DNA from: a virus
Length of the DNA: 28,287 bases
Virus record (IMG/VR): IMGVR_UViG_3300047276_000426
Coordinates: 1 to 28,287 of that record
Direction: 5' to 3' (one strand)
The notes under the pieces are model-generated. The model was not told the DNA's origin. It worked only from the letters and a program-made list of their open reading frames with translations, and ran no database searches. Position numbers and translations under genes: made by a program. Below are positions 9,765 through 25,693 of this stretch, piece by piece. Positions within the stretch are counted from its first letter, which is position 1; the number at the start of each line of letters is the position of its first letter.

Positions 9765-10003
9765 TGTAGTGCGTATTGTCTCATTTTTCCTACTACCTTG
9801 CTCACACATGCCGGGCAATTGATGCGTTCCGGCTCCGCCGATGGTGCTACATACCTGTTATAGACCTCAAAAAGATACTCTACATCCTTGTAGTCCCATG
9901 TCATCCGGGCTACGTTTCGGCCTATGGCCTGCACCACGTCAGGCCGGACGGCCTCCGGGATATTATCGGCTCCAAAAAAATGAGGGTGCGGAATTGATTT
10001 CAT
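9743..10003 (-). CDS. Unknown small protein after tape measure, 86 aa
   Basis: An ATGA overlap with the tape-measure stop (10000-10003) couples it to that gene. The sequence has a helical middle part (PEAVRPDVVQAIGRNVARMTWDYKDVEYLFEVYNRYV) and one Cys pair (INCPACVSK, about residues 61-69). It might be a small tail-assembly protein, but it is not recognised. A single Cys pair is not enough to claim a zinc site. Confidence 0.75.
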   Translation of the reverse strand: MKSIPHPHFFGADNIPEAVRPDVVQAIGRNVARMTWDYKDVEYLFEVYNRYVAPSAEPERINCPACVSKVVGKMRQYALQWRTQSS

Positions 10004-12867
10004 AATGTTGCTTTGATTTTCACGGCCTCGCCGTCTGCCATATCCCGCGCAATGTCGTCTGTGACCACATAGGCCCGGAGCCTGTCCAATCGGGCGTTGA
10101 TGGCATCGGTTTTCCTATCCAGTGCCGAAATTGCTGCCATGCTATCGGCAGGAGATACTGATGCAGGCAGTCGCGGTGCTCCAATGGTAGGCGAAACGGC
10201 CCCGCCGGTAGCGAAGCCCGGAACACCAATAGAGCGGAACGTTCTTGCACCTCCCAATGCTGCCTGTTGGCGCTGATTCAATACCACCTCCCCACGCTTG
10301 ACGGTTGCCAGTACATTGTCGCCATTGCCCCTCGTGCGGATATTTTGCCGGTCATTCACTTTGCGCCCTGAGATGCCCACCACGCCGCCGGTAGCAAGAG
10401 GCTGCGCTGCGATGGTTGCGGTTTGGATTGCGGCGAAGATGCCGGTTGCAATTGCGGATGGTATCGTAAACGGCGGGCCGGGAGGTATTGCCAACGCCCT
10501 TTGCACAGCTAATGCACCCTGAATGATGGAGGAAATAAGCGCGTTTCGCTTTTCCGCCTTGCGCTGTCGTTTGCTTTCTGCCTCCGCTGCTTTGGTCTGC
10601 TCTTCTAATCGTTTCTTTTCCGCTGTGATGCTCTGCTCAATGAACCGCTTTCGGATGCCGGTCGCTTGTTGTGCGCGGTCTTCCAGTTCGGTTATCTTTG
10701 CCTCGGTGTCATTTATTTGCTGCTGAAATATCTCGTTTCTGCGTTGGTTTGATGCGGCTGTCAGGGCATTGATGAGATCGAACGTTTGCTGTACGCCCTG
10801 CTGAATATAGGCTAATGTTTGATCGCGGCGCTGCAGTTGTTCAAGGCGTTCTTGCTTACTCAATGCCTTTAGGCGCTCTTGGTTTTGGCGTATCTCGGTT
10901 CGGAACCGTTCATCATTTAACTTTTTACCCAACTCCAAAAGGCGTTTGGATGCCTGCGTTCTTTCGTCAAATTCGATGTTCAACAGGGTAGAAGTAAGCG
11001 TTTGTATTTGCTGCACTGCCTGCGTTTCACGTTCCCGGCTTGCCTGAAATTCAAAGCGGTTGCGTTTTTCGATGGCTTCCTCTAATAGCTTTTGTTGTTT
11101 GGCGTATGCGTCAATCAGTCGCTTTTGTGCGGCGCCACCTGCTACCGCCTCATTGATGGCTTTTTGCAGTTCGTTCGCTTTTTTCTGTATGGCAGCAATG
11201 CTACCGGCGGCGAACTTTTCACCAACAGCGGCCCCGGCATTAGATGCGGCGGCGTCCTCTTGCTTTTTGCGCTTTGCGTCGAATAGCAGCGCTTCTTCGT
11301 CTGCCTGTTTGACCTTTACAATTGCATCGGCAAAGGCTTTGGAGTAGGCAATCAACGGGTTTTCAAGGTTGAAAAATGCTTTTAGTGCGGCATTTGCCCC
11401 GGCAACAACAGCGGGAAGGCCATTGAAAAACTCCAATACAGCCCCGGCAGCATCCGCTAAAAACGTTTTTGCCTTTACTTTGAGCAGTTCAAATTCTGTT
11501 CCCGTCTTTACTGTAAACTCAGCCAGCCGCGCTTGTGACTGGGCTAATTCCTCATTGGCTACAAATAAGGCGTACTGCTGCGATTCATATTCGTTGGTGG
11601 ATTGTGTTACCCCATCGGTGGCGCTTTCCACATCAGCGAGCAATTGCAGGAAGCGTAAGCCCGCATCTTCACCCGGTCCTCCGAACACATCGGCGATAAC
11701 CGTCTGCGTTTGCTTTGCTGTTAGTTGGGTGTCACGCAATCCACCAGCTACCCGCTTTAGGGCGTCCACTGTGGTGATACTGCCGTCATTGAGGCCCTTG
11801 AACAATTCGCCGGTGAACTTCTTACCAAATGCGCCCTCTAATGCTATGGTAGTTGCTTCAGTTTGTTCCCTGATGCGCAAGCCAAACTCTTTAACCGCGT
11901 CAATGCCTTTGTCTGAATAGATGCCCTCGTTTTGGGCGTTGATGAGAATGTCAACAAATGACGCGGCACTACCTCCGGCGGCAGCGAATTGCGCGGGGTA
12001 TTCCCGCAACTGATCTAAGAAGTCGCCCTGTGCGTTGGCTCCCTTGCGGAACCCGGCCTCGATCAATGTGAGCGATTCGTCAAAAGAGATACCAAATTCC
12101 TTAGCAACGGCATTGGCCGCGTTGATGATTTCCCGGCTTTCCTGTTGATAGGTGCGAGACAGGGCAATGACCGTGCCGGTATTGTCTTGCAGGGTTTCGC
12201 CGGTGTCCCCGCTCACCTGTTGCAGTCTTTTCGACGCCTCGGTAAATTCTTTGGCTCCCTCTGCCGCTGAAATCAGTGCGGCACTTACCTCATTGAACAC
12301 GGTCACAGCGAGCAGGATAACCCCCAAAGACTTGTTGAGCGCTCCGCTTGCACCTGTGGCTACTTTGAATCCATCCGTAAGCCCGCCAATAGACTGGGTT
12401 ACGCGCGGGAAAAACTGTGCAAGGGCTTCGGTATATCCTCCGACATTGCGCTGAAATTGCCCGACCGATGCGTCTATCTGCTTAAGACGTTGATCGAGCG
12501 TCGTTATTTCGGTGCGTAGGTCTATGGCCTCATTGGTGAACTGCTTTCCGGCGGCGGCAAGGTCTTTGTACCGCTTACGCTGCTCGTTCAGGGTGCGGCT
12601 CAATTTCTCATAGCTGCCGGATGCGTCGTCCACCGCGTTCAACTCAATGCGCCGGAGCTTTATTTCCTCCCTGATTTGCGCGTTAACGTCCTGCTGCGAA
12701 CCTTTCAGAGCAATGAGTTCCTTTTCCAGTCGCTTTATTTCCTCAACGTCGCCCGTTTTTTTCAGTTCCTTGTTCACGTCGGCAATTGCCCGGCGCAATT
12801 CCTCAGCGGTCTCAACGGCGCGTTCCGTGCCTTCTATGTTAATTGAAAAACCTAATACCTTCGCCAT
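10000..12867 (-). CDS. Tail tape measure protein, 955 aa
   Basis: This is the longest gene of the window and sets tail length. Residues 15-150 are charged coiled coil (AVETAEELRRAIADVNKELKK and following repeats). An aromatic/Gly segment (FQRNVGGYTEALAQFFP) follows, then a hydrophobic region near residues 180-205 (LGVILLAVTVFNEVSAALIS). Next is the TP901-type tape-measure core (FGISFDESLTLIEAGFRKGANAQGDF; FVDILINAQNEGIYSDKGIDAVKEFG; AFGKKFTGELFKGLNDG; VIADVFGGPGEDAG). More coiled coil runs to about residue 790, with a hydrophobic membrane-like stretch near 795-840. The C-terminus (ATGGVVGISGRK, GEVVLNQRQQAALGG) is typical of Bacteroidota phage tape measures. At about 0.15 nm per residue a tail near 140 nm would be expected. 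One-base overlap (TAATG) with the upstream gene. Confidence 0.9.
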   Translation of the reverse strand: MAKVLGFSINIEGTERAVETAEELRRAIADVNKELKKTGDVEEIKRLEKELIALKGSQQDVNAQIREEIKLRRIELNAVDDASGSYEKLSRTLNEQRKRYKDLAAAGKQFTNEAIDLRTEITTLDQRLKQIDASVGQFQRNVGGYTEALAQFFPRVTQSIGGLTDGFKVATGASGALNKSLGVILLAVTVFNEVSAALISAAEGAKEFTEASKRLQQVSGDTGETLQDNTGTVIALSRTYQQESREIINAANAVAKEFGISFDESLTLIEAGFRKGANAQGDFLDQLREYPAQFAAAGGSAASFVDILINAQNEGIYSDKGIDAVKEFGLRIREQTEATTIALEGAFGKKFTGELFKGLNDGSITTVDALKRVAGGLRDTQLTAKQTQTVIADVFGGPGEDAGLRFLQLLADVESATDGVTQSTNEYESQQYALFVANEELAQSQARLAEFTVKTGTEFELLKVKAKTFLADAAGAVLEFFNGLPAVVAGANAALKAFFNLENPLIAYSKAFADAIVKVKQADEEALLFDAKRKKQEDAAASNAGAAVGEKFAAGSIAAIQKKANELQKAINEAVAGGAAQKRLIDAYAKQQKLLEEAIEKRNRFEFQASRERETQAVQQIQTLTSTLLNIEFDERTQASKRLLELGKKLNDERFRTEIRQNQERLKALSKQERLEQLQRRDQTLAYIQQGVQQTFDLINALTAASNQRRNEIFQQQINDTEAKITELEDRAQQATGIRKRFIEQSITAEKKRLEEQTKAAEAESKRQRKAEKRNALISSIIQGALAVQRALAIPPGPPFTIPSAIATGIFAAIQTATIAAQPLATGGVVGISGRKVNDRQNIRTRGNGDNVLATVKRGEVVLNQRQQAALGGARTFRSIGVPGFATGGAVSPTIGAPRLPASVSPADSMAAISALDRKTDAINARLDRLRAYVVTDDIARDMADGEAVKIKATL

Positions 12868-15299
12868 TAGACTACGTCGTGTAAGGTGATGAAATAATTG
12901 CAGCCGTCAAAATGCGTGAACTCTTCAATCGTAATCAATGCCCCGCTAATAGTATATTCAAGCTCCGGTACAAGTATTTTGCCGTTTTGGTTGATGGTCA
13001 CAACGACGTAAGGGTTTGGAACGGACAAAATGCCAGACGTGCCCGGCAGGGTAATAAAGCGGCTGGTACTGCCTTCAATCAATTCCCGGTAGCGATATAC
13101 CACCACGCCCGCACCTGTTCCCGGCGCTCCAATGACGCCATTAATTGCCCCTAAAGATGTGAGGCTGTTTTGTGTTGCGCCTTCCAACAGCACAGGCCCG
13201 GACACTTTCGCAGCGTCGGCAGTGGTGGGAATCACATCAAGTAGCAATTCCGTGCGCGTGCTTTTGTCCGACGCCGGGGTATATCCATCCACGCGCTCCA
13301 GCAACAGCCGGGAACCCTCCCAGCGTATCGCATTGCGAAAAGACAAGGCGCTGATGTCGAGCGGGTCAAATCTTATGTTAAGTAGAAAGCGACGTCCTTC
13401 TTCAATGCGTCGCAGTGTTTGCAGGTGTAGGCTTTTGAACAGGCCCCGGACGGTTTGCCCGTAGTTGGTCACCTCATCGGCAAAGCTTAAAGACCAATCC
13501 ACGCCGCTGCTATCGCTGTAATTCACCTGCCATGCTGCCGGAAAGTCATAAGCGCTTGTGGCGCTGCTTGTCTCATTGTAAATACGAATGTACCCGTCAT
13601 CCCCGGAACGACGGCCCGCAAAATAGAGCAGGCGCGGGTTAAGGGTGTAGTCGGCTTCGGCATCCGGCTCCTCGAAGTAGTTCTTGCCGTACAGCAAAGG
13701 CACTTGTACTGCCATATTACCGCCGGAGCTTATTTCTGCATCATTGATGTGTACGGTTTTGGCAAGGTAAGTGGTATATACCCATTCACTGCCTGCCGGG
13801 TATCTGCCGGTGGTGTGGCGGTATCTTGCGGAGTATAGCGACGTAGCTGCCCGCTTTTCGATTTCCTCTGCCGTTGGGTCTCCTGTTCCCCATGCCAAAA
13901 CGTAGTCCTGCTTTTGGTCGTCTTGCAACTGCATTTCTCCGCCCTCTGATATATCAACTTTGCGCGTTATGTCGGTCTCAAGCAGAGGCGGCAAATAGAA
14001 CCCCTCGCGCGTTGTTGTTGTGGCGCTGCCATTGCCCCCTGAGCGGTAGGATAGGGTATGCGTATCTCTTGGGTATGCCGTAACGGTGCGACTTAAAACG
14101 TCGGTTTCCCAGCGCAAATTGAAAATCTGCGTTATGTCGGTAATGAAGTCCTTGACATACCACGTTCCCGGTATGATGTAATCAAAGTCGAGCGTTTCCC
14201 CAAGTCGCCAGCGTTCCTTTTCGGCCTCAATGACCAACTCAAAGTCGGTCAGGGTAACAGCGGAATCAATTCGGGTGATCTCAATGGTGAACACATCCCC
14301 CGCCTCCATTTCACCGATCCATTCAACGGTCGAAACTGGTGTAATTGCATCTGTAGTGCTACCTGTGACAGGTGAGCCATTGACATAAAAGAAGATATTG
14401 AACCCGGTAGCCCCCCATGTGATAGGCGTTACAAACTGCAAATTGATAGCATACAACGCGCCGATGGGTGCAGTATATTCCCCGGTCGTTGTGTTGTAGT
14501 TGTTGCCGGGGTCGGCATTGGGTGCGGTGCTGTCGTCATTCATTATCAAATCCCCGGCGGTTAGCTCAGGGATAGATGTTAGGTCAAACGTTGCACGGCT
14601 TGCGCGGACGTTGACAAAATTGGCGGCATATTGCCCATCCAGTGCAAGCGGAACCGGAACGATCAATCGATTAAACGGGTCATTGTCAAAAGCGGAATTC
14701 AGCCGGTAGCCGATGGATTGAAACGCCCGGCGCAATATGGCAGTAAGAAACAGGCAGGGCGTTAGCTCGGTGTACAAAACCTCCGTTTCCCGTTCCCATT
14801 GTTTCCACTTGATAAGCGCAAAACAGGTATCCTCAGTGAGCGGGTCGGCATTTCCAGCAGCATCGTAGTTGGCCGCTGTGAGTTCCACAGTTCCCCAATC
14901 CAACGCCCTGATGAGCAGCCCGCCCATGTCGCCGAACCAATCGGCATTTGCCCCGACAAAAGTTACTTGGTAGTTGGAGGCTTTCAGACCATGCCGTGTG
15001 CCGATCAACGCAGCGCGGTTTAATTGCGCCTTGCCTGTCAATATAGGAATTCCGCCCACTTCCGCCCGTGCTGGCAGCAATTGGTTTGCTGTGGTCACTA
15101 CCGTACCGGACTGGTCTATGTTATGGAATAGCTCATGGTTCGCCTTCGTTCCCGGCAGTGTAATGGAACGTTTGGCATACGCCCCGCCTACCTTGCCCGG
15201 CTCCGTGCCCTCTATGGAATAGACAAAACTGATCTGGTTTGCGCCTTGCAGTACGTCCACAAGTTGCCCGTTGATCCATATTTTTAGCTCTCGACTCAT
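12867..15299 (-). CDS. Large tail or baseplate protein, 810 aa
   Basis: This large beta-rich protein lies directly before the tape measure (one-base overlap). It begins with a strand-rich domain (ELKIWINGQLVDVLQGANQISFVYSIEG) carrying GGAYAKRSITLPGTKANHELF, then helical parts (TPCLFLTAILRRAFQSIGYRL, about residues 180-200) and many strands. The last 46 residues (765-810) form a small module with the pattern NGKILVPELEYT...ITIEEFTHFDGCNYF. It closely resembles the end of the 254-aa protein encoded at 17028-17792. Similar proteins are annotated only as tail proteins in Bacteroidota phages. Tail-tip or hub function is inferred from size, fold type and position. No peptidoglycan hydrolase motif was seen. 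Confidence 0.7.
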   Translation of the reverse strand: MSRELKIWINGQLVDVLQGANQISFVYSIEGTEPGKVGGAYAKRSITLPGTKANHELFHNIDQSGTVVTTANQLLPARAEVGGIPILTGKAQLNRAALIGTRHGLKASNYQVTFVGANADWFGDMGGLLIRALDWGTVELTAANYDAAGNADPLTEDTCFALIKWKQWERETEVLYTELTPCLFLTAILRRAFQSIGYRLNSAFDNDPFNRLIVPVPLALDGQYAANFVNVRASRATFDLTSIPELTAGDLIMNDDSTAPNADPGNNYNTTTGEYTAPIGALYAINLQFVTPITWGATGFNIFFYVNGSPVTGSTTDAITPVSTVEWIGEMEAGDVFTIEITRIDSAVTLTDFELVIEAEKERWRLGETLDFDYIIPGTWYVKDFITDITQIFNLRWETDVLSRTVTAYPRDTHTLSYRSGGNGSATTTTREGFYLPPLLETDITRKVDISEGGEMQLQDDQKQDYVLAWGTGDPTAEEIEKRAATSLYSARYRHTTGRYPAGSEWVYTTYLAKTVHINDAEISSGGNMAVQVPLLYGKNYFEEPDAEADYTLNPRLLYFAGRRSGDDGYIRIYNETSSATSAYDFPAAWQVNYSDSSGVDWSLSFADEVTNYGQTVRGLFKSLHLQTLRRIEEGRRFLLNIRFDPLDISALSFRNAIRWEGSRLLLERVDGYTPASDKSTRTELLLDVIPTTADAAKVSGPVLLEGATQNSLTSLGAINGVIGAPGTGAGVVVYRYRELIEGSTSRFITLPGTSGILSVPNPYVVVTINQNGKILVPELEYTISGALITIEEFTHFDGCNYFITLHDVV

Positions 15300-16525
15300 A
15301 GTTCCTGTGAGCTTTCGTTTTCGACAATGACCGTTAGTTGCATCTCTGCGTTCGGGCTTCGGCTGCGTTCATATTCTGTATTGCCCGGCGCAATGGTGCA
15401 GGCGTGGTATTGCCCGTCTATTTCGATATACACCTCCGGCGATTTGCGCAAAGTGCGCAGCCATGCCCCAAACTCAGGTGTAACAGGTTCACGGATTTCG
15501 TACTCAATGCGGGTATCAATGTCGGTCTTAATAATGCCCCGTGCGGGGGTCAGGGGTTCCTGAACAGGTGGGTCTTGCACCTCTGTCCACACGGGTGAGA
15601 TTTCACCCACGTTGCCCGTGTCGGTCTGCTTTTTGACTATTTGCCCCTTGAACGTGTACTGCTCCGGGCCGCCCATTGCGCCCATCCAATACAAGCGTTG
15701 CCCCCAACTACAAGAGCCTTCAAGCGTGAATGTCAATTCCTCGCTTTCGCGGGTAAATTCTGCATCGGCATACGTCCCGACACTGAATGTGTAGTGCGTA
15801 TAAGCAGCCAGTGAGGTAGGTATTGCCCCCTGCAATATAGTGAGGCCCGGCGTTGTGCCTAATAGGTTGGCAGGCCCCACGCCAAGCGTGTGCATTTCCT
15901 CGGCCGTTGGCGTTACCGTTGTGCGAATGATAAGAGCCGTTCCGACGCTTGGGGATTCAAAGAAAGTGAACTTTGCGGCGTCTATGCCCCGCGCGAGCCA
16001 ACTGATGAAGTAGTTGTCCTCAATGCTCACAAATTGGGAGGTCGGCGCGTTGGAAAGAAAGCGCATATCCCCGGTAGCGGATGGTTGGTAGTATTGACTC
16101 AGGGGCATATCATACAGCGAACGGATAGCCGGGAGGCTGTACAGCGTGCTGCTGGTTTCCTCACTGCCCGCAACCTCCTCCAAATACCCGTCTGTATTGC
16201 GTATTTCAAGCGTAGTTGTCAGGTAGTAAGGGACATATACATCTGTGTTCACCCTTACCGTGAAAACATCCAATATTTGAAAAATGCTACTTTGGTCAGT
16301 AGCGTATGGGGCGCTGTTGCGGGCTGTAATGGTCTGCACGTCTATATCGAACTTGTATCCGCCTGCGGTGCTGGTGTACGGCTTGCGGTACGTCGCCTGC
16401 AATGCCCCGGAAACATATACCTCGCAGAGCAGCGTTTCCACATCTGCCGTGCTGGTGCGCTGGTTTTGGAAAACTTGCGGACGGTAGCACGTTGAGGGCT
16501 GTCTCGGTTCGTATAGGTAGCTCAT
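15296..16525 (-). CDS. Tail structural protein, unassigned, 409 aa
   Basis: A beta-rich, Thr/Tyr-rich protein that is not recognised. It has an N-terminal strand region (ETLLCEVYVSGALQATYRKPY; GGYKFDIDVQTITARN), a middle part with SQFVSIEDNYFISWLARGID and AALIIRTTVTP-like strands, and SWGQRLYWMGAMGGPEQYTFKG near residues 270-293. The C-terminal part is a compact sandwich (RIEYEIREPVTPEFGAWLRTLRKSPEVYIEIDGQYHACTI). ATGA-type 4-nt overlaps link it to both neighbours, so it is one of four co-translated genes leading to the tape measure. A minor tail or baseplate component is likely from context. Confidence 0.7.
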   Translation of the reverse strand: MSYLYEPRQPSTCYRPQVFQNQRTSTADVETLLCEVYVSGALQATYRKPYTSTAGGYKFDIDVQTITARNSAPYATDQSSIFQILDVFTVRVNTDVYVPYYLTTTLEIRNTDGYLEEVAGSEETSSTLYSLPAIRSLYDMPLSQYYQPSATGDMRFLSNAPTSQFVSIEDNYFISWLARGIDAAKFTFFESPSVGTALIIRTTVTPTAEEMHTLGVGPANLLGTTPGLTILQGAIPTSLAAYTHYTFSVGTYADAEFTRESEELTFTLEGSCSWGQRLYWMGAMGGPEQYTFKGQIVKKQTDTGNVGEISPVWTEVQDPPVQEPLTPARGIIKTDIDTRIEYEIREPVTPEFGAWLRTLRKSPEVYIEIDGQYHACTIAPGNTEYERSRSPNAEMQLTVIVENESSQEL

Positions 16526-17040
16526 CTTTTCAGGATTGACTGAATGAAATTATCAAAATACACATTGAACGCCGCCCCAACGCCCTGCAATATCAACGCC
16601 TCGAACTCCGCTTCTTTGCCCTGCAACGCCTCGCCCACAAAGCCGGTGCGCTTGCCTGTGCTGCTGAATCGGGCGCTTCCGCGTGTCGGCATCCCTTCTC
16701 GCTTGTGTTTCGACGCAATGGCAAAGGCAATACTTAATGCCTCTTTATCACTTACGCCCATCCTCATTTTTGCGTATCGTTGCAGGCCTGCAATGTATTT
16801 ACTTGTTCTTGCCCCGCTGCCGGGGCTGTATGGTATCCTGTCTGCCGTCACTCCCGTATTGAGGTAGGCCATGTAGTCGTTCAAATACCCCTCTATCGTC
16901 CAACCCTTTGCTGTTTTCAAGATGCGCGTTTCCATGTCGCGGACGGCAGAGCCGGTAAGCTCGTGACCTTGCGCCCTCCAAGCGATTGCAATGCCCTGCA
17001 TGGCAAGGTCTGCGATCTGTTGTACTATCACACCGTCCAT
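16522..17040 (-). CDS. Tail completion-like protein candidate, 172 aa
   Basis: A basic alpha/beta protein. It has a helical N-terminus (VIVQQIADLAMQGIAIAWRAQGHELTGSAVRDMETRI) and then GWTIEGYLNDYMAYLNTGV. The latter resembles the pattern of phage gp10/HK97-type minor tail proteins, in which an early helix with HxLTGxL precedes a beta region. The middle is Arg/Lys/Gly-rich (KHKREGMPTRGSARFSSTGKRTGFVG), and a C-terminal helix (VGAAFNVYFDNFIQSILKR) closes the protein. It overlaps the upstream gene by 13 nt and the downstream gene by 4 nt. The role is suggested by this pattern and by position between the terminator-like and tail genes; confidence in the specific function is low. Confidence 0.7.
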   Translation of the reverse strand: MDGVIVQQIADLAMQGIAIAWRAQGHELTGSAVRDMETRILKTAKGWTIEGYLNDYMAYLNTGVTADRIPYSPGSGARTSKYIAGLQRYAKMRMGVSDKEALSIAFAIASKHKREGMPTRGSARFSSTGKRTGFVGEALQGKEAEFEALILQGVGAAFNVYFDNFIQSILKR

Positions 17041-17792
17041 AGCCCACGAACGTAGTATGTAGCCCCTTCGTAATGCGTCAGGGCGTCAATAGTGATGGTT
17101 GATGCCCCAAGCGTGTACTGCTCAGGCAGTAGCTTTTGCCCGGACAAATACACATCCAAAGACCATGCCCCGGTAAGATCGAAATTGTTTGCCGTCCACG
17201 CAAGCACTGCGCTGGTTGTTTCATCGAATTGCTGTTCGCCTTTCACCCATTGCCCAATAACCACATCTGCCGGAGGCCAGGGTATGCCGGAGGGAACCGC
17301 CGCCGGAAAGTCAATCACGGCCCCGCAGCTTGTATTGGTAGCGATACGAAGGTCAACCACAACAGAAATAAGGCGCTGCATACCACTAAAACTGTCAAGC
17401 GTAAAACGCGGGTTCCCCTCGATCATTACCCCGTCAGGGCGCAAGGACGGCAGCGAGCTTTCAAGTGTCTTTAGCCATGCCGTTGCCGCGTTCATCAGGT
17501 TCCGCCACTTTTGTAGCTGCGTTTGGTCGTCCGCCTCCCCGTCGTTGTCGTACCCCAAGAGGTCATCAAAGAACAACTGCACATTGTAATAATCCTTTTT
17601 CGTTCTTGGATCTTGCTCCACCGTAGGCACAGCAAAAAGCAGGCGCGGGTATAATGCCCCTGCCTGCTCTGTTTCGTCATTCGTTGCTCTTGGTCGCACC
17701 CTGTCAGACGGCCAGCCAAACCAATAGGACGAAAGCCCAAGCGTGGAGGCGGCCACTGCGTCAAAGAGGTTACTTAGTTGGATTATTGTCAT
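17028..17792 (-). CDS. Tail protein with C-terminal module shared with the 810-aa protein, 254 aa
   Basis: The N-terminal 160 residues (LFDAVAASTLGLSSYWFGWPSDR; LYPRLLFAVPTVEQDP; YYNVQLFFDDLLGYDNDG; ATAWLKTLESSL) resemble small tail-terminator or joining proteins in layout: an N-terminal helix, then 'YPRLLF' and 'YNVQLFF' strands, then a long helix. The protein is longer because of a C-terminal extension. The last 45 residues (SGQKLLPEQYTLGASTITID...THYEGATYYV) match the end of the 810-aa tail protein in pattern. Its start lies inside the -1 frame extension of the upstream gene (overlap 17770-17792), which supports that extension. The tail-terminator assignment is tentative. Confidence 0.7.
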   Translation of the reverse strand: MTIIQLSNLFDAVAASTLGLSSYWFGWPSDRVRPRATNDETEQAGALYPRLLFAVPTVEQDPRTKKDYYNVQLFFDDLLGYDNDGEADDQTQLQKWRNLMNAATAWLKTLESSLPSLRPDGVMIEGNPRFTLDSFSGMQRLISVVVDLRIATNTSCGAVIDFPAAVPSGIPWPPADVVIGQWVKGEQQFDETTSAVLAWTANNFDLTGAWSLDVYLSGQKLLPEQYTLGASTITIDALTHYEGATYYVRGLWTV

Positions 17793-18848
17793 AGCTCAGT
17801 TTGTCTTGTGCCGATTTCGCCGCAAGGTACAAGAAAGCCTCGTACAAGTTGGCAACTTCGGCGGATTTCATCGGCGTGCAGTCGGGCCTATTGAATAGAC
17901 CACTTTCGGCAATGGCCTTGAGTGTGAGATACCATCCGTAGCGCTGCGCAACGTCTGCGCTACCTCTCGCAGGCCGCGTTCGCCCATTGGGAGGGTCGTA
18001 GAGGTCACGAAATTTAGTGTGGATTGCTGACTTTGCCTCATCAAAAAAAAAGCGATGTCCATCGCTATCGAAAGCGGCAAGCGTTGGAAGTTGGCGCGGT
18101 TGCGCTCATACACCTCATCGCTGTATTGCTCCCCCGGCTTTCGGAGTAGAACGGCGATCACATCCACAAGGCACAACAGATTTCCGTTTTGCACCTTTTC
18201 GACATTGGCCTGAAATTGCGCGGCCTCAGCAAATTCAATTACCGTTGCATTGGTCATGTGGCGCTCAGGTAGTTCGTACGTCTCCCCCTCAAAAATGTAG
18301 GTACGTTGATAGGTGTACTCCGTCGGAGGTTGGCAGGATTTCACAATCTTACCGTATAGGTATTCAATCGTTTTGACAGCCATGCCGTGCGTGCTGCCCT
18401 TCATTATCGTGTCGTAATGAATGCCTGTAAAATGCGATACCACGCGAGCCATGTAAGGTATCATCTCCTTCGCATACCATACACTGCCCATCGCGTCCAC
18501 CGCTTGCATCTGCTTTGTATGCGCGTCCTCCAATGCCGAAATAAGCTCCGGCAGAACTTGGCGTGCTTTCTTTGGGCTGCGTGAATCCGTCGCATAGGCT
18601 TTCAGCATTTTTATTTTGTCTTCGGTAAGCGTTGCCGCTGGGTTGGGCACTACTTTTTCAATCCACGTTTGCAGGGCTTCGAGGGCTTCGTGTGCCTTAA
18701 CGCCTTGCTCTTGTGCCTGCCTGACCTGTGGCGGCTCCATTGGCATGATGTCGGTAAGAAAGGCAATGTATTGCCCCAGCGTCACATCTGCCGGGCTTTC
18801 AGGGTACCTATACTTGGTATCGTCTCCGGGAATGGTAAACACTATCAT
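17770..18848 (-). CDS. Tail assembly or structural protein made by probable -1 frameshift (359 aa; 326 aa without shift)
   Basis: The normal frame runs from 18848 to a stop at 17868 (326 aa). At codons 266-269 it reads GCT TTT TTT TTG, a T9 run at 18043-18051. A -1 shift on that run enters a frame open for 91 more codons to a TAA at 17770, giving 359 aa. The shifted tail has good protein character (FDEAKSAIHTKFRDLYDP; RYGWYLTLKAIAESG; EVANLYEAFLYLAAKSAQDKL) and overlaps the next gene by 23 nt. The unshifted tail after residue 268 is Ser/Thr/Arg/Pro-rich and looks like out-of-frame sequence. The first 268 residues are helical (YIAFLTDIMPMEPPQ; MGSVWYAKEMIPYMARVV; LCLVDVIAVLLRKPGEQ). Such shifts are characteristic of tail chaperones, but this gene is several genes before the tape measure and its family is not recognised. 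Confidence 0.75.
18043..18051 (-). promoter_or_regulatory. Candidate -1 ribosomal slippery site (T9)
   Basis: Nine T residues on the minus strand, read GCT TTT TTT TTG in the zero frame, contain the perfect heptamer T TTT TTT (X XXY YYZ type). Re-pairing one base back leads to TTT GAT GAG and onward into the open frame that ends at 17770. No obvious strong stem immediately downstream was identified by eye. Alternatively this is a homopolymer length error or a real frameshift mutation: T10 or T7 would fuse the frames directly. Confidence 0.6.
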
Positions 18849-19147
18849 GCCGCCTTTGCTTTGCGCCCGCGCTTCGGTCTTTCCGGGCCTGTTTCGGGGG
18901 TGGAGTTGTCAGCCAATACCGGCCCCTCGGAGATATCCTGTACCTGTTTTGCCTCGTCGGTAGGCGGGTAGCTTACTTGTTGGGCGTTGCTCGGTGGGCG
19001 CGTTTTGTCAAGTGAGGCAATACCGAGGCGCTTGCAGGCCTTTTCTACCAGCTTAAATGCACCAATGACCGCCCGGCGGTTGACGCGGTTGTTGCTCTTT
19101 ACATAGGCCCACAGTTCATTGCGGGCGCTTTCTAATTCTTTTTTCAT
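18845..19147 (-). CDS. Unknown protein after large terminase, 100 aa
   Basis: The first 45 residues are basic and helical (ESARNELWAYVKSNNRVNRRAVIGAFKLVEKACKRLGI). The last half is Pro/Ser/Glu-rich and probably disordered, ending in a basic patch (ERPKRGRKAKAA). It is not recognised. The start overlaps the terminase stop by one base and the stop overlaps the next start by 4 nt (ATGA), so it is part of the packaging/tail transcript. A nucleic-acid-binding or packaging accessory role would fit the charge but is speculative. Confidence 0.7.
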   Translation of the reverse strand: MKKELESARNELWAYVKSNNRVNRRAVIGAFKLVEKACKRLGIASLDKTRPPSNAQQVSYPPTDEAKQVQDISEGPVLADNSTPETGPERPKRGRKAKAA

Positions 19148-20394
19148 TAGTTGTATGCGGTTATGTCCGAGCCTTCGGCCAGACGAGTGAAGATATAACG
19201 CAGCGCGTCGATGCTGTGGTTATTCGCATCAACCGGCGTGCTGCTTTTCTTGTCGTTCCAAACATAGGTATTCAATTCCTTTTTGATGTTGTGGCTCCCC
19301 TGCGTGACCACTATCGTGTAATCCTGCATTTTCTTAATGCCCTCAATCACGCTGTCAGGCCCCTTCTCTGCCTTTTGGATGTTCACGCCTGCGGCGGCTA
19401 TGTCATTTGTCAGGCGCGGCTCGGAGGTGTCCGCAATGACCATCTTTTCAGTTCCTACCATTGCCCGTACTTGCGCTACCGTGTTGGAGGTGCTTAGTTC
19501 GGTCTGGTAGATCATCTCCTGTACATATATCCGCTTTGCGCCGCTATCAACGGCGCATTTGACCAATGCCAGCGGGTCAGGGAAATACCCATAATCAAGC
19601 CCGTAGCCGCAGGGTAGCGAGGTATCGAATTCGCCCTCTATCCAGTTAGGAAACACCACGCCCTCGGCCTGCTCTTGCCACTTGCCCAAAAAGATATGCT
19701 CATACTTTGCCCGGTTGGATTCCCGGAGGTGCATGATCTTTTCAAAGTAGGACTTCGGTATGTTATTGAGGTTGTTGAGGTATGTCGTGTGGATGTGCAA
19801 CACTTCGGGGTGTCTCGACATGGGTATCTTTGCCCCGTCTATCATTATGTACTCGGTATGACCTTCAAACCACTTGCGCCAAATGAAATGATCCACATCT
19901 TGCGGGTTCATTATCAACGTCACGCGGTTGGGCGCATCCATTGCCCTGACTGAAAAGTCTATCGTATCAAATGCAACCTCATCCCGGAATTCCTCCGCCT
20001 CATCAACAACAAACCGGCTCAATCCGGGGATGGATTTCAATTTAGCCGTTTGGTTGCCGCTGCTTGTTTTGATACCGGCAAAAATGATTTGGTTGCCTGT
20101 TGTGTTGTGTGTGATGGTATTATTGGACGCGGTGAACTGTGGCGCAAGGCCGGATAAGTCGAGCTTGTCCTGAAACTCCGGTATGATCGAAATGTGAGCC
20201 GAAGAAAGGGTATAGCGGGTGAATAGGGTTTTGTGGGGTACTTCGTGAGTGAGGGCGACGGCTTCAGCCAATGACGCGGTAAAGGACTTGGCGCTATTGC
20301 GCCCGCCGGTAAGTAGTATGTACCGCTGCTCCGTTGCATTGAACAGGGGCCGGTACATCTTTTTAACCGATATTGTCCGCGTCTGTGCTGTCAT
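19147..20394 (-). CDS. terL: Terminase large subunit, 415 aa
   Basis: This is the ATPase and nuclease that packages phage DNA at the portal. The N-terminal ATPase has the adenine-side YRPLFN, Walker A GGRNSAKSF (30-38) and Walker B RFVVDEAEEF (127-136; Asp131, Glu132), followed by VTLIMNPQD as coupling motif. The C-terminal RNase H-like nuclease has GLDYGYFPDP (Asp267), VIADTSEP (Asp322) and NNHSIDALRY (Asp397), the three acidic metal ligands. Length is normal for the PBSX-type (Terminase_3) group. It overlaps the small-subunit gene by 32 nt, with its start inside that gene. Confidence 0.95.
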   Translation of the reverse strand: MTAQTRTISVKKMYRPLFNATEQRYILLTGGRNSAKSFTASLAEAVALTHEVPHKTLFTRYTLSSAHISIIPEFQDKLDLSGLAPQFTASNNTITHNTTGNQIIFAGIKTSSGNQTAKLKSIPGLSRFVVDEAEEFRDEVAFDTIDFSVRAMDAPNRVTLIMNPQDVDHFIWRKWFEGHTEYIMIDGAKIPMSRHPEVLHIHTTYLNNLNNIPKSYFEKIMHLRESNRAKYEHIFLGKWQEQAEGVVFPNWIEGEFDTSLPCGYGLDYGYFPDPLALVKCAVDSGAKRIYVQEMIYQTELSTSNTVAQVRAMVGTEKMVIADTSEPRLTNDIAAAGVNIQKAEKGPDSVIEGIKKMQDYTIVVTQGSHNIKKELNTYVWNDKKSSTPVDANNHSIDALRYIFTRLAEGSDITAYN

Positions 20395-20754: not shown

Positions 20755-21549
20755 TTAGAGCGGCATGGTCGAATCGAACGCCCCCGCCGGCTGGTCTGCC
20801 GGTTGCTCTCCCTTGTGAGCTAATGCCGCATTTTTGCGCCTTTCGGCTAAAGTAATCTTTTCCCCTTTGTACATTCCGGCCCCAAGTTCGTCAATTTTTG
20901 AAAACGGAATGATGGGGACGGTAATTTTGCAGGTTTTGTCTATTAGGTAAATGTATCGGAGTTGGAAGCCATCAACATTTTTACACCCTTTTTCTAAAAA
21001 CATATTAATACTACTTGCCCCAGTGTCTTTAATTCCACATTCATTTAATATTCTTGCTCTTTTAGGATTACCAACTTGTGTTAAAGTCATTCTTGTAACT
21101 CTCTCTCCTCTTGGAGTTTCAATTATTTGAGTGCTTTTTTTTATCGCCGTCAAATGAAAACCACTAGCTCTATAAATAACACCATCACCGCATTGAACAC
21201 CATCTGAAAAAGATAAAATCCATTTTATATGTGGTGCATTTTTTTTTATTAATTTAACTGCAATTGAAAAACATCTACTTTCAGAATATTTAGGTAAATA
21301 GTCATCAAAAGCCATTCTATTAAGTTCTAACATTTCATTCCATAAACACGGCTGAACAAGTGGTAAAACCTTTGATTTATCCATAGGACTTCCAAAACTC
21401 ATAACACCATGCAATTTATCATCAAGAAAACAACCAAAATGCAAAGCACTTGTATTGCTTACAGTTCCGCTGTAATGATGCTTTTTCACAAACTCATTAG
21501 CAACCTTCGCCGGTATGACCTTCACGATTATATCCTTTGCCCTGCCCAT
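20755..21549 (-). CDS. Mom-like DNA modification protein (GNAT fold), 264 aa
   Basis: Strong resemblance to the Mom family, named for the phage Mu protein that converts adenine to N6-(methylcarbamoyl)adenine and blocks restriction. Matching segments are IPAKVANEFVKKHHYSG (12-28), LHFGCFLDDKLHGVMSFG (36-53), EMLELNRMAFDD-LPKYSESRCFSIAVKLIKKN (72-104) and WILSFSDGVQCGDGVIYRASGF (110-131). These are the acetyltransferase-like core of the family. The gene overlaps the ParB-like gene by 22 nt and precedes the terminase genes. Its core is far more AT-rich (21001-21480, 32% GC) than either end or its neighbours, suggesting recent acquisition. No Com-like translational activator was seen. Target base and cofactor are not known for this member. 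Confidence 0.85.
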   Translation of the reverse strand: MGRAKDIIVKVIPAKVANEFVKKHHYSGTVSNTSALHFGCFLDDKLHGVMSFGSPMDKSKVLPLVQPCLWNEMLELNRMAFDDYLPKYSESRCFSIAVKLIKKNAPHIKWILSFSDGVQCGDGVIYRASGFHLTAIKKSTQIIETPRGERVTRMTLTQVGNPKRARILNECGIKDTGASSINMFLEKGCKNVDGFQLRYIYLIDKTCKITVPIIPFSKIDELGAGMYKGEKITLAERRKNAALAHKGEQPADQPAGAFDSTMPL

Positions 21550-22121
21550 GATGCTACTATTAAATAAAGTGCGTTTCCGTTGCTGTTTTCGTTCCCGTGC
21601 GTTTCGGCGAACTTGTATTCATCCGTTTGCTTTATGTCGTTGATGGCGTTTTGTATTACCGTCGCCTGTGCATCGGCAAGGGTAAACGTCATTTGTTGAA
21701 ACGGTGCTTTGTCGCCTTCCGGCAAACTAAAGCCTTCTCCCATGTCGTCCGGTGAAATATCAAACCCCGGCACATCCAATCCCCACGCCTCCAAATCTCC
21801 CGCGTCCCATTCATTCGCAAGCGTCTCCCACTCCCATTCCCCGAAGCCGACGTTATCAGCGATAATAAACCGCTGCTTTTCTTCTTCGGTCAGGTCATCG
21901 GCACGTTTTACCCACTCGTCAGGTATTTCTTTGTAGCCCAAATCCTGCAAGGCACGCAGGCGCATGTTCCAGCCGAGTATTACGCCGGCGGCATCCACGA
22001 CAATAGGCCGAAGGTGCATCATCTTTGGGAACTGCTCAATACTGTTTTTGAGCTTTGCAAAGCGTTCGTCCCGGATGATGCGCGGGTTATTTGGATTTGG
22101 TTTAATGTCGGATAGCTTCAT
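21528..22121 (-). CDS. ParB-like domain protein, 197 aa
   Basis: The N-terminal ParB/Srx-type domain has IKPNPNNPRI (6-15), a helix RFAKLKNSIEQFP, RPIVVDAAGVILGWNMRLRALQDLGYKEIP (38-67) with the GW-MRLRAL loop in place of the nucleotide-binding GxHR of ParB, and IIADNVGFGEWEWETLANEWDAGDLEAWGLDVPGF. That last block is typical of the phage ParB proteins found beside DNA methylases. The C-terminal 70 residues are less conserved (TFTLADAQATVIQNAINDIKQT). It is coupled to the glycosyltransferase by an ATGA overlap and to the Mom-like gene by 22 nt. Role is probably in the DNA-modification island (DNA binding or CTP-binding switch), as inferred from neighbours. Confidence 0.85.
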   Translation of the reverse strand: MKLSDIKPNPNNPRIIRDERFAKLKNSIEQFPKMMHLRPIVVDAAGVILGWNMRLRALQDLGYKEIPDEWVKRADDLTEEEKQRFIIADNVGFGEWEWETLANEWDAGDLEAWGLDVPGFDISPDDMGEGFSLPEGDKAPFQQMTFTLADAQATVIQNAINDIKQTDEYKFAETHGNENSNGNALYLIVASWAGQRI

Positions 22122-23128
22122 GCCTGTAAAGACTTTATTACCTCTAAACGCTTCTCGTTCAACTTTTGCACGGTCAAATGCTCGGAAATATACGCGCGTC
22201 CCTGCTCTACTAACTTCACCTTATCTACTTTCCCGGCTTTGATCTTATTTAAAACAGCCTGAAAGTCGTGACGGTTATTGTACCGCAGCAAACCCGGTAT
22301 CATGTCCCATTCAGGAAAGCCCGCCGGCACAATGGGCAAGGCCCCAACGCGGAGGCATTCAAGGGCAAATATGTTGCTCTTGCATCTGTTGAAGTCGTCA
22401 TCGGTAAGCGGGAAGATACCGTAGTCCGGTTGGCTCTCGCGCATCAGTTGAAAGTAGGTAAACAGCGTCTGCCATTTGATGAATTGAATGTTTCCATCCT
22501 GCAAATCCGGCAGCATCCATTTTTCAAGCCCCACCATAACAAAAGCAAACGCCGGGTCTTTGGCCATGATCTTCAACTCCGATTTGATGGTATGCAAGTC
22601 GCTCAGGTGCGTTGTGCTGCCCCGGAATATCTGCCGTATCGGTTTGCGCTGTGGAAGGATAGGTTCAAGTGGATGGTGTTCGGGGTTCCAACCATTGCGC
22701 ACGACGGTAATCTTTTCGGCGGGCATGTATTGAGAGTAGAACTCTTTGAGTGGCGGTGTTGAAACAAAAAGATGATCTGCAAGCCGTAACGCCTCATTAA
22801 TACTTTTTTTCACATCATCCTTCTCAAAATGCCCTTGCGCGGGGTTGCTGTCCGGAATGTGATGCAATAGGTCATCAATGTCCAATATGACTTTTTTGCC
22901 CATCCGGTGCGCCTCCTGCACATACCCCACTATTGTGCCTCCGTTCGGGCGTTGGAATAATACCGCGTCTACCTGCCAAATATCAAACCACACGGCACGG
23001 TCAGGGCTGTGTATAGTCACTTGGATTTCATCCGGATAATCACGCTCCAATTGCGTAAAAGGCCCGACGGTGCGGTAATAGTCGGTGCCTGGGCTTTGTG
23101 GGTTGGATATGATAAGTAATTTTAGCAT
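22118..23128 (-). CDS. GT-B glycosyltransferase (GT4-like), 336 aa
   Basis: A two-domain GT-B enzyme that transfers a sugar from an activated donor. It has an N-terminal acceptor domain starting LKLLIISNPQSPGTDYYR, a Rossmann-type strand and the segment VILDIDDLLHHIPDSNP (80-96), a signature of phage-associated GT-B proteins. A linker VRNGWNP and IFRGSTTHLSDL (167-178) open the donor domain. The donor site EPDYGIFP..DDDFNRCKSNIFALECLRVGALPIV (231-267) resembles the GT4 E-x7-E region (Glu257). No signal peptide. Between a GT2 gene (8-nt gap) and the ParB-like gene (4-nt overlap). Acceptor could be a host glycan, lipid A-related sugar or a modified base; sequence does not say. Confidence 0.85.
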   Translation of the reverse strand: MLKLLIISNPQSPGTDYYRTVGPFTQLERDYPDEIQVTIHSPDRAVWFDIWQVDAVLFQRPNGGTIVGYVQEAHRMGKKVILDIDDLLHHIPDSNPAQGHFEKDDVKKSINEALRLADHLFVSTPPLKEFYSQYMPAEKITVVRNGWNPEHHPLEPILPQRKPIRQIFRGSTTHLSDLHTIKSELKIMAKDPAFAFVMVGLEKWMLPDLQDGNIQFIKWQTLFTYFQLMRESQPDYGIFPLTDDDFNRCKSNIFALECLRVGALPIVPAGFPEWDMIPGLLRYNNRHDFQAVLNKIKAGKVDKVKLVEQGRAYISEHLTVQKLNEKRLEVIKSLQA

Positions 23129-23136
23129 CGTGCTTT

Positions 23137-23916
23137 TTATGGGCGTATGCCTGCGCCGCGTATTGGATTGACGGCCATAATGCGCTGCGTTTCCTCCGGC
23201 GTCAGATAATTATTGATGGGCAAATGTAGCCCATTTTTTTCATAATGCGCTATTTGCTGCCCTAAAATATCTGCATTGCCTAATTTGTGAAGGCTTTCCC
23301 ATTTCATAGACCTGTATGGCGTTTGTTCTTTTACGTCATGGCCTACATGTATGCTTTGCTCATCTGCAAGCATCGCATGAAAAAAGCCTGCCTGCCGGGT
23401 GCGGTGATGCCAGTCGCTATCTTCAAGGCCGTAAGGATGGAAGCGGTTGCAAAGAAATCCTAACTGCCTGGTAAGCAAGCGGGAGAAAACAACAGTTCCA
23501 AAGGCATTGTCCATGTAGAAAAAACGAATGCCTGCACGCTCGGTAACTTCTTTTCCATTTGTGAACCCGAGGCAATCAATACCAACGCTGCCCATCCCGG
23601 CCAATCGCTTGTGAGCATGTACCATCTTTTTACCCCAATCGTGGGGCATTTCAATGTCATTCCCAAGCAGGCCGATGAAATAAGCCCCTGATTGAAACAT
23701 GCCCCAATTCTGCATTCTGGCTACTCCCTCATTTTGGGCATTGAATCGGTAGATGTGTGCGCGTTCTTTGATCCACTCCCTCAAAGCTGGGTCAGTGCTG
23801 CCATTGTCAATGACAATCAATTCATAGGGCACACCAATACGACGCAAATTTTCATCAGTGACGCGCATGGTCATTTCTGTGCGGTCAATGGTGAGCATGA
23901 TAAGGCTAATCTTCAT
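23137..23916 (-). CDS. GT2 family glycosyltransferase, 259 aa
   Basis: A GT-A fold enzyme: N-terminal strand LIMLTIDRTEMT, the nucleotide-binding IVIDNGSTD (35-42), FIGLLGNDIEMP (80-91; here Asn-Asp-Ile-Glu replaces the usual DxD), and YGLEDSDWHHRTRQAGF (162-178) with the acidic catalytic region (Glu165-Asp166). No membrane segment and shorter than synthase-type GT2 proteins. It overlaps the acyltransferase start by 11 nt and precedes the GT-B gene by 8 nt. The paired GT2/GT-B genes probably act on the same acceptor. Possibly a short C-terminal arm is used for partner contact. Confidence 0.85.
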   Translation of the reverse strand: MKISLIMLTIDRTEMTMRVTDENLRRIGVPYELIVIDNGSTDPALREWIKERAHIYRFNAQNEGVARMQNWGMFQSGAYFIGLLGNDIEMPHDWGKKMVHAHKRLAGMGSVGIDCLGFTNGKEVTERAGIRFFYMDNAFGTVVFSRLLTRQLGFLCNRFHPYGLEDSDWHHRTRQAGFFHAMLADEQSIHVGHDVKEQTPYRSMKWESLHKLGNADILGQQIAHYEKNGLHLPINNYLTPEETQRIMAVNPIRGAGIRP

Positions 23917-24487
23917 GGCGCATGGGATATTTATCCAGATACATCTGGTGTAATTGAATCAATATTTCAGCATCTATTCCGGCGCGTTGAATGCCAACCT
24001 TGTTTTCCCCTATGTATTTGGCCGGGATTCCGGCCCATGTTTGGCCGGGCTGAATGAGTGCCTTGAAGGATCGACGCGGAACAAATGAATTCCCGCCTAT
24101 GGCACAAAACGCCCCAATGACTTGATACTGATGTATGCCCGCGTTCATGCCTATGTAGGCCCCTTCGCAGATACGACAATGACCCCCGACAACAGCGTGC
24201 GGGGCAATGGTAGCATTAGGCTCTAAAAACGCGTCATGCCCGATGTGAACGCCTGACATAAGCATGTTATTTTCTCCGATCATAGTGCGGGCATATGCGC
24301 CCGAATCAACGACAACGCATTTTTCAAGGCGTGCACCGGCGCTTATGACAACGCCTTTGCCGCTTCCGGTAAAACCTTTTATTTCAGGCGGTGCGCCAAT
24401 AACGCAGAAAGGGCCAACATAGGCCCCATTTTCAATGACGACGTTTGGATATATTACCGCCGTCGGATGGATTTGTGCTTTATTCAT
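23906..24487 (-). CDS. LpxA-like left-handed beta-helix acyltransferase, 193 aa
   Basis: This protein consists of hexapeptide repeats ([IV]GxxxxI pattern; VIYPNVVIENGAYVGPFCVIG; SGVHIGHDAFLEPNATIAPHAVVGGHCRICEGAYIGMNA). The LpxA-type catalytic His is retained: MNAGIHQYQVIGAF, His119, matching E. coli LpxA His125 in VHQFxxIGA. The C-terminal helical part (AGIPAKYIGENKVGIQRAGIDAEILIQLHQMY) also follows LpxA. UDP-GlcNAc acyltransferase LpxA adds an acyl chain at the first step of lipid A synthesis, but it is longer (about 260 aa), so this may be a diverged enzyme that acylates another sugar or amine. The start overlaps the HNH stop by 8 nt and the stop overlaps GT2 by 11 nt. An unusual gene for a phage. 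Confidence 0.85.
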   Translation of the reverse strand: MNKAQIHPTAVIYPNVVIENGAYVGPFCVIGAPPEIKGFTGSGKGVVISAGARLEKCVVVDSGAYARTMIGENNMLMSGVHIGHDAFLEPNATIAPHAVVGGHCRICEGAYIGMNAGIHQYQVIGAFCAIGGNSFVPRRSFKALIQPGQTWAGIPAKYIGENKVGIQRAGIDAEILIQLHQMYLDKYPMRHED

Positions 24488-24734
24488 ATTGAGTTGCTTT
24501 GTTGTATGGAAAAGTGCCGGTTTCCCGGCTTACGATGTGGTCAATCTGCCCGGCTCCTTTTGCCCTGCAATCTGTCAGGCGTTCCGGCAGGCAGGCTTCG
24601 CAAAGTGGCTGCCGTTCAAGGTGCATATACCTAAATCGCTTCCACGCCTTGCCTTGCAAAAATGCGTCCGGCTTACTGGCTCTGTTTTGCCAGTTGGGCG
24701 CGGGCTGTTTTATTGGGCGTGGAAGATATGGCAT
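24480..24734 (-). pseudogene. Truncated HNH endonuclease-like protein, 84 aa
   Basis: The first half of a phage HNH nuclease is recognisable: AFLQGKAWKRFRYMHLERQPLCEACLPERL, with Cys45 and Cys48, and the start of the catalytic motif QIDHIVSRETG (Asp65-His66-Ile67). The second half of the HNH motif (the 'Asn...LCxxCHxxK' region with the other metal/zinc ligands) is missing. The frame ends TGTFPYNKATQYE inside the start of the acyltransferase gene. It is likely inactive as a nuclease, or may be a remnant left when the sugar-modification genes were inserted. ATG at 24734 is used; a TTG two codons upstream is also possible. Confidence 0.7.
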
Positions 24735-24745
24735 ACACAAAGTTA

Positions 24746-25015
24746 CTACTTTTTTTCAATCCGATACCGCGCCACCCGTTTTTTCGGGCTGACGGGTATC
24801 ATTTCGGTGATGACAACAAATTGATTACCCTCTTCCTGCAACGCCTGCCGGATTTCATGCACGCGGGCTTTCATATTCCAGCACCCGAACATATTGAGTG
24901 CGTCCATTGCGGTGAGTGTTCCACCCCCTTCGAGGTGTTTGCGGATTTGCGCCCGCTGGCTTGGGCTGGATAACACGGGTTTGGCAAAATGGCTGTTTAA
25001 TTCTTCTATCAACAT
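24746..25015 (-). CDS. Small HTH-domain protein (PF14090-like), 89 aa
   Basis: A small DNA-binding-type protein. AQIRKHLEGGGTLTAMDALNMFGCWNMKARVHEIRQALQEEG, about residues 22-63, matches the helix-turn-helix domain common in phage accessory regions (pattern LT..DALN.FG...ARxHEIR). A short beta C-terminus follows (FVVITEMIPV...VARYRIEKK). It starts after an A-rich leader and lies 11 nt before the truncated HNH, and 83 nt after the gene ending at 25099 with an attC-like element between. It may regulate the downstream modification island, but no operator was found. Confidence 0.75.
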   Translation of the reverse strand: MLIEELNSHFAKPVLSSPSQRAQIRKHLEGGGTLTAMDALNMFGCWNMKARVHEIRQALQEEGNQFVVITEMIPVSPKKRVARYRIEKK

Positions 25016-25052
25016 TCGTTTTTAATTTTTAAGTTTTGTAATTCTATTTAGC

Positions 25053-25092
25053 TTCGGGTTCAGCCACTTCGCCAAGCCCGAAAACGTTGGGC
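25053..25092 (-). repeat. attC-like half element, site A
   Basis: Immediately after the TAG at 25099-25101, the minus strand reads GCGCCCAAC, containing the core RYYYAAC (GCCCAAC, 25092-25086). This is followed by a stem TTCGGG/CCCGAA (25077-25082 with 25053-25058) with an 18-nt loop containing CTTGGCGAAG. No GTTRRRY partner follows within about 40 nt. It resembles half of an integron recombination site, or one of the degenerate intergenic repeats seen in Bacteroidota genomes. Confidence 0.4.
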
Positions 25093-25098
25093 GCAATA

Positions 25099-25296
25099 CT
25101 AAGGATGCACCTCATTAAGTTCGTGTTTAGCCATTTCAAGACCTTTTACAACGGCTGACATAACCATATCTAAATCCGTTCCGTTAAACACCTGCCAACC
25201 GCCTTGTTTGTCAAATATAGCTTGATTGCCTTTGAAATCCTCAGTTAAACATTTTAGGATTTTCTTCTTGATTAAATTTCGTTCTTTGTTTGTCAT
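25099..25296 (-). CDS. Unknown small protein, 65 aa (cassette-like unit 1)
   Basis: A Lys-rich N-terminal helix (MTNKERNLIKKKILKCLTEDF) and a short amphipathic C-terminal helix (GTDLDMVMSAVVKGLEMAKHELN) enclose a middle segment (IFDKQGGWQVFNG). It is not recognised. An attC-like half element follows its stop directly, and site B precedes its start by 20 nt. So the gene is bracketed by such elements, as a gene cassette would be. Local composition is AT-richer than that of the structural genes. Confidence 0.65.
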   Translation of the reverse strand: MTNKERNLIKKKILKCLTEDFKGNQAIFDKQGGWQVFNGTDLDMVMSAVVKGLEMAKHELNEVHP

Positions 25297-25316
25297 TTGA
25301 TTAAATAAAGTACTGC

Positions 25317-25412
25317 GCCCAACAGCGGTTTAGCGCAATGCCGCTGAAAGTGCAGTGGTTAATAATTAATTTTAGTGTATGCGGCACTGCGCAAAGCGCA
25401 GGAACGTTAAGC
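25317..25412 (-). repeat. attC-like inverted-repeat element, site B
   Basis: Eight nt after the stop at 25422 the minus strand has GCTTAAC (25412-25406, fits RYYYAAC). Twenty nt before the next start is GTTGGGC (25323-25317, fits GTTRRRY). The two can pair fully with G-U wobble. Inside are a 12-bp inverted repeat, 25333-25344 with 25381-25392 (one G-T mismatch), a perfect 6-bp hairpin CTGCGC-AAA-GCGCAG (25387-25401), and an AT-rich loop of 36 nt. This order (stop, R'', stems, R', next gene) matches integron attC sites, although the two L boxes adjacent to the R boxes are weak. Confidence 0.5.
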
Positions 25413-25421
25413 AAAACCGCA

Positions 25422-25682
25422 CTACAACATTTTTGCATAGTCGGTAACTGCTTTAGCATGTTCAAGTATTCTGCGTTTATATTTCTGATTGACAGGGCGG
25501 CTTCGCTTAACAGAAGGATTTGAAGAAATTTTTAAAACCTTCCGTAAGTATTTATCAATTCGTTCTGCCGCTTTCTGGCATTCAGTATCGTAATTTCCGT
25601 CACTCGTTGACCAACCGTTAGTCCATCCTAATTGGCTGTTGATGATTTTTGCAATGTGGTATTTCTGTTTTTCTGTAAGCAT
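25422..25682 (-). CDS. Unknown small protein, 86 aa (cassette-like unit 2)
   Basis: Not recognised. An N-terminal helix (TEKQKYHIAKIINSQLGWTNGW), then DGNYDTECQKAAERIDKYLRKVLK, and a basic C-terminus (KRSRPVNQKYKRRILEHAKAV). No Cys pair, membrane segment or signal peptide. It begins 11 nt after the preceding gene without an attC-like repeat between them, so the two may belong to one unit. The element at 25317-25412 follows its stop. High Lys/Arg content would allow nucleic-acid binding, but that is only an inference. Confidence 0.65.
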   Translation of the reverse strand: MLTEKQKYHIAKIINSQLGWTNGWSTSDGNYDTECQKAAERIDKYLRKVLKISSNPSVKRSRPVNQKYKRRILEHAKAVTDYAKML

Positions 25683-25693
25683 ATAAATCGGTT

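Follow-up and report, generated by a model that had tools for sequence, protein, structure and literature searches.

Among tailed phages, programmed frameshifting has its firmest examples in the tail-assembly chaperones (PMC5009743). The lambda G/GT pair consists of a short form and a long form with an extra C-terminal domain, produced by a -1 transition near the 3' end of a gene in the structural module. In phage P2 (E/E') and the P2-like Smp131, the -1 shift occurs in the tail operon on T-run sites, T6G and T7G, respectively (PMC3931495). Homopolymeric A/T runs of about nine nucleotides lie within mxiE, Thermus dnaX, and IS elements, and the long product of mxiE depends on transcriptional slippage (PMC1088944).

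Here we describe a recoded gene in a virus record of 28,287 nt (IMG/VR IMGVR_UViG_3300047276_000426, 51% GC), the whole of which was analysed and is called the window below. Like lambda G/GT, it belongs to a structural module, has its -1 transition near the 3' end, and would encode a short form plus a long form with an additional C-terminal domain. Unlike lambda, it has a run of nine T's (T9) in place of the lambda heptamer and an N-terminal part of 266 aa, does not lie beside the tape measure gene, and has no detectable sequence family match. It shares with P2 and Smp131 a T-run site, a -1 shift, and a tail-operon setting, but the run is fixed at T9 in 71 of 71 related loci, the protein is much longer and unrelated, 19–57 codons are dual-coded, and five genes separate the TerL (terminase large subunit) side from the tape measure, so that the two are not adjacent. 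The run resembles those of mxiE, dnaX, and the IS elements, with the difference that here it sits in a phage structural-module gene and slippage is a prediction. Nonlabens phages P12024S (P12024S_38/_39) and P12024L (P12024L_40/_41) also have a TerL-adjacent gene split at T9 with the C-terminal part in the -1 frame; they differ in the codon phase of the run, in the A that follows it, in an N-terminal part of 175 aa, and in being annotated as two hypothetical genes. By contrast, phages FPSV-F7, 2A, laban6-1, and BT-TP2 have a single frame and no T9 run, and only the long form is expected from them. Comparison of sequences makes it likely that the gene is recoded at T9, that both forms are made in a ratio set by slippage there, and that they act as a chaperone-like pair; the slippage is perhaps mainly that of RNA polymerase.

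The split gene and its neighbours

Nearly all structural genes of the window are on the minus strand. Their order is small terminase-like gene, TerL, a 100-aa gene, the recoded gene, and genes of 254, 172, 409, and 810 aa, followed by the probable tape measure (955 aa), head protease, probable capsid protein, and portal.

19147–20394, minus strand: TerL gene, upstream neighbour of the recoded gene (Pfam Terminase_3 3e-22, Terminase_3C 1e-13)
18845–19147, minus strand: 100-aa gene between TerL and the recoded gene, without a family match; counterparts in loci L011 and L027
17868–18848, minus strand: zero-frame gene encoding the short product (326 aa), with homologues in 71 or more distinct loci
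18043–18051, minus strand: T9 slip run, read in the zero frame as xxT TTT TTT TTG
18042, minus strand: G after the run, completing the heptamer T TTT TTG
17868–18041, minus strand: dual-coded stretch, zero-frame tail over the start of the -1 frame; 57 codons in the window, 19–57 in relatives
17770–18042, minus strand: -1 frame extension encoding the C domain, 90 codons plus stop (17772–17770)
17028–17792, minus strand: 254-aa gene whose start lies within the last part of the -1 frame; synteny kept in relatives
16522–17040, minus strand: 172-aa gene, syntenic in relatives, without a family match
10000–12867, minus strand: probable tape measure gene, 955 aa (phrog_28 tape measure 7e-4, phrog_37298 3e-44)

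The short product comprises an N domain of 266 codons, the residues FFL, and a zero-frame tail of 57 codons, and codons 266–269 read GCT TTT TTT TTG, which coordinates and translation confirm as originally predicted. The predicted extension agrees as well: the -1 frame runs to 17770 over 90 codons and a stop, giving a long product of 266+3+90 = 359 aa, and its end overlaps the next ORF (start at 17792) by 23 nt. The tape measure candidate, which matches annotated tape measures of Bacteroides, Elizabethkingia, and Cellulophaga phages by tblastn, lies about 5 kb downstream with four genes in between, consistent with the remark in the original prediction that the gene is far from it.

Runs of eight or more T's are within chance expectation in the window (9 matches, 4.1 ± 2.7 expected, a number reached in 8 of 100 shuffles), so the significance of the T-run comes from comparison with homologues. 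Modelled apart rather than as a fused protein, the N part gave a confident AF2 fold (pLDDT 88) and the C part a weak one (pLDDT 64). The N part (18848–18051) has an apparent repeat of a beta-hairpin plus helix motif at residues ~2–37 and 183–220, possibly an internal duplication.

Elsewhere in the window, the 254-aa (17028–17792) and 810-aa (12867–15299) genes share a similar short C-terminal stretch (39% identity over 33 residues), also present in loci L004, L011, and L027. A role of the 172-aa gene in tail completion, from its position and appearance, is only a guess. The region 20755–26053 holds glycosyltransferase genes and a gene for Mom-like DNA modification; the latter appears AT-rich against the 51% GC of the contig, and its sense strand carries runs of A8 and A9.

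Conservation of the two frames and of the run

We collected relatives by a TerL search of IMG/VR, which yielded 26 loci, those with the gene carrying N in frame f and C in frame f-1, and added further loci, including one MAG contig, with protein profiles. Removal of identical stretches left 71 distinct loci with both parts of the gene. They group into 29 clusters at a nucleotide identity of 90% and into 14 at 75%, and pairs are as little as 42% identical. Most are metagenomic contigs, and the 'Richelia' MAG contig (L155) may be misbinned. TerL lies upstream and structural genes downstream in the relatives, and isolates with similar TerL and tape measure genes suggest that the hosts of most loci would be Bacteroidota. 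The gene copy was not recognisable in TerL relatives L016–L026. Searches for close relatives of the single protein in viral contigs, tblastn of each part separately against phage records, and a comparison with plasmids returned no match to the gene.

In all 71 loci, the C part is in the -1 frame relative to the N part, and the two meet at a run of exactly nine T's with a G after it, with no T7, T8, or T10, so that neither shortening nor lengthening of the run restores a single frame. The alignment called for in the original prediction thus finds the T-run and both frames preserved, and the C domain, 43–66% identical to that of the window in the relatives aligned, is conserved as -1-frame sequence. 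The idea that the long form depends on a frame change stood in the close relatives, none of which encodes it in a single frame; only the remote Flavobacterium Unahavirus and laban6-1 and Bacteroides BT-TP2 seem to. In the 738 kb of these loci, a total that counts overlapping loci repeatedly, the same strand holds just three more T9 runs. A T9 run at L016:2652 lies where a 223-codon open frame meets an acetyltransferase-like -1 frame of 157 codons; this could be either a simple overlap of genes or a second case of recoding.

We counted substitutions by parsimony on one tree (length 12.9), which makes the counts approximate, though the contrasts are large. No base of the T9 run changed on the tree. 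At the opening codon (GCT, GGT, or TCT) the residue varies among Ala, Gly, and Ser, with two changes at position 1 and three at position 2, but its third base did not change, compared with 4–24 third-base changes at 20 comparable fourfold columns. Of the 292 columns in which positions 1 and 2 changed three or more times, every other one also has third-position changes, and T ends only 20% of the Ala codons in these genes. Third-base changes number 0 and 0 at the two slip-site Phe codons against 5, 8, and 11 at three other invariant Phe columns, and the slip Leu codon has no first-position change against 4–14 at other Leu columns. The G after the run is kept in 71 of 71 loci although the -1 residue that it begins varies among D, A, V, and G. 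Conservation of the slip site therefore exceeds coding needs, with the wobble base fixed at the opening codon and at both Phe codons.

The dual-coded stretch gave a different picture from the original prediction, which had regarded the zero-frame tail as merely the wrong frame. Third-position changes in the -1 frame number 5.5 per codon in the overlap versus 11.7 after the zero-frame stop (P = 1e-6), and 13.2 upstream, while position-1 plus position-2 changes are higher in the overlap (9.7 versus 6.5). Since the third position of the -1 frame is the second position of the zero frame, the drop matches purifying selection on the tail, which thus appears to be under selection itself; the short form is probably a real product. 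Comparison among the loci shows that selection maintains the two frames, the T9 run, and the overlap, and that it constrains both C-terminal ends. On these grounds, one structural-module protein is very probably made by the phage in two versions, short and long.

Alternative origins of the two frames and the machinery that slips

Because homopolymers are error-prone, we considered whether a sequencing or assembly error interrupts a gene that is truly one uninterrupted frame, as the long form seemingly is in distant Flavobacterium and Bacteroides phages. This reading has practically no probability: T9 with the C part in -1 recurs in 71 distinct sequences from many metagenomes and in the isolate genomes P12024S and P12024L, which rules out sequencing error, and it is also at odds with the single run length among the loci and with the constrained zero-frame tail. 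Two separate genes, the downstream one with an internal start, would fit the GenBank listing of P12024S_38 and _39 as separate entries and the TTG found in the -1 frame of some loci. The conservation of T9 would then be left unexplained, and the annotated P12024S_39 begins mid-domain. Just 6 nt separate the opening of the -1 frame from the run in 52 of 71 loci, and between that opening and the conserved GWY motif 46 of the 69 testable loci have no ATG, GTG, or TTG, so a separate start is not a general explanation; we reject it for most loci and regard the two-gene arrangement as highly improbable. With frames consistent throughout, the run fixed, and few independent starts available, there is strong support for the originally proposed -1 transition at T9 into a longer protein. 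The constraint in the overlap could alternatively come from selection on RNA structure; among pseudoknot-free structures, however, RNAalifold found 0 consensus pairs, and single-sequence folds were near the shuffled mean in most loci.

What slips at the run is a closer question. Straight reading gives the 326-aa protein, and a -1 transition at T9 would swap its last 57 residues for the conserved 90-residue helical domain, giving 359 aa; both proteins would be made, in a ratio set by slippage at T9. In the account that we prefer, slippage would come mainly from RNA polymerase, a U10 transcript restoring the -1 frame, although this step is uncertain, and ribosomal -1 slippage on T TTT TTT / T TTT TTG would be a close alternative or a helper. 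A/T runs of nine are slippage-prone, and their avoidance becomes evident at nine in many bacterial genomes (PMC1088944); the RNA:DNA hybrid is nine nt long, and insertions climb steeply with run length (PMC5574713). The A/T run here has a length of nine in 71 of 71 loci, and in P12024S and P12024L it stands in another codon phase. Polymerase slippage is the simplest account because all nine T's are conserved and T9 recurs in a second codon phase. A serious contender, to which we assign somewhat less than an even chance, is programmed -1 frameshifting by the ribosome alone, with a tandem slip on T TTT TTG and/or T TTT TTT that produces a tail-assembly-chaperone pair. Both heptamers are present in all 71 loci, the invariant G fits T TTT TTG and is not required by polymerase slippage, and P2 E/E' (T6G) and Smp131 (T7G) set precedents in tail genes (PMC3931495). 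Neither heptamer alone, however, accounts for nine fixed T's including the wobble base of the preceding codon, although two overlapping heptamers could still require all nine. In the Nonlabens phages, where the phase differs and A follows the run, T TTT TTT is the only one of the two heptamers present. Among pseudoknot-free structures, RNAalifold detected none that is conserved downstream, the z-scores of single-sequence folds lay mostly near 0, and no conserved Shine-Dalgarno-like element was seen upstream by eye; such stimulatory elements are frequent at ribosomal -1 sites but not required. We judge polymerase and ribosome to be near even, with a slight lean to polymerase.

Putative function, remote relatives and implications

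The short form would be made in many copies and the long form in few, like a tail-assembly-chaperone pair, and the extension of the long form would recruit another tail component. A short form and a -1 extended form predicted from one structural-module gene follow the chaperone design, and the stretch from the 810-aa gene to the tape measure showed no other recognisable chaperone candidate. On the other hand, the recoded gene lies near TerL, upstream of genes without an assigned role, and is not directly upstream of the tape measure, and sequence searches of Pfam, PHROGs, and PDB found no family, including no tail-assembly-chaperone family. A PDB fold search gave no significant match, and the fold match of the N part to one annotated tail assembly chaperone model is weak (E 1.2, prob 0.35). 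A chaperone-like role is likely from position, two-product design, and the weak fold matches. That the product works like a tail-assembly-chaperone pair we hold to be rather more probable than its opposite, with membership putative. The earlier label 'tail-region' protein is plausible from position and falls short of proof.

Viral models that the N part also matches by fold include those of proteins from Nonlabens phage P12024S and Flavobacterium phage 6H. Directly after TerL, P12024S and P12024L carry the counterpart gene, which is continued in the -1 frame by a C-like domain that matches the C profile of the window (hhalign 94.5%). The N part is alike more by fold than by sequence (14%), and the T9 junction has the different phase and following A described above. 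Each pair (L161:23136–23830 in P12024S, L167:4206–4900 in P12024L) is annotated as two hypothetical proteins, the second annotated start falling within the C domain; by the layout of their reading frames, P12024S_38/_39 and P12024L_40/_41 appear to be one gene each, joined by a -1 transition at T9.

FPSV-F7, 2A, and laban6-1 (Flavobacterium) and BT-TP2 (Bacteroides) have one ORF with a similar N-to-C layout and no T9. Their C-terminal motif resembles that of the window (AESG.F/..TPLW.) with weak profile matches, and homology to the window family is a lead. If it is correct, only the long form exists in these phages. Phage 6H was rejected as a frameshift case by its close relatives FPSV-F7 and 2A, in which the ORF is intact: 6H gp10 (L160:10044–10927) is interrupted relative to their single ORF, probably by sequencing errors or as a broken gene.

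Frameshifted tail-assembly genes were already known; the family described here has no annotation in Pfam or PHROGs, and sequence searches of 50,697 deposited phage records turned up only remote relatives. Such genes are split or truncated by gene callers, among them those applied to the Nonlabens phages. It is possible, at odds just short of even, that in a widespread and so far unannotated family of tailed phages the ratio between two forms of a structural-assembly protein is set by transcriptional rather than ribosomal slippage on an exactly conserved T9, with an overlap that codes both tails. A T9 slip site with both frames under selection offers a clean natural test of polymerase versus ribosome slippage in setting phage protein ratios.
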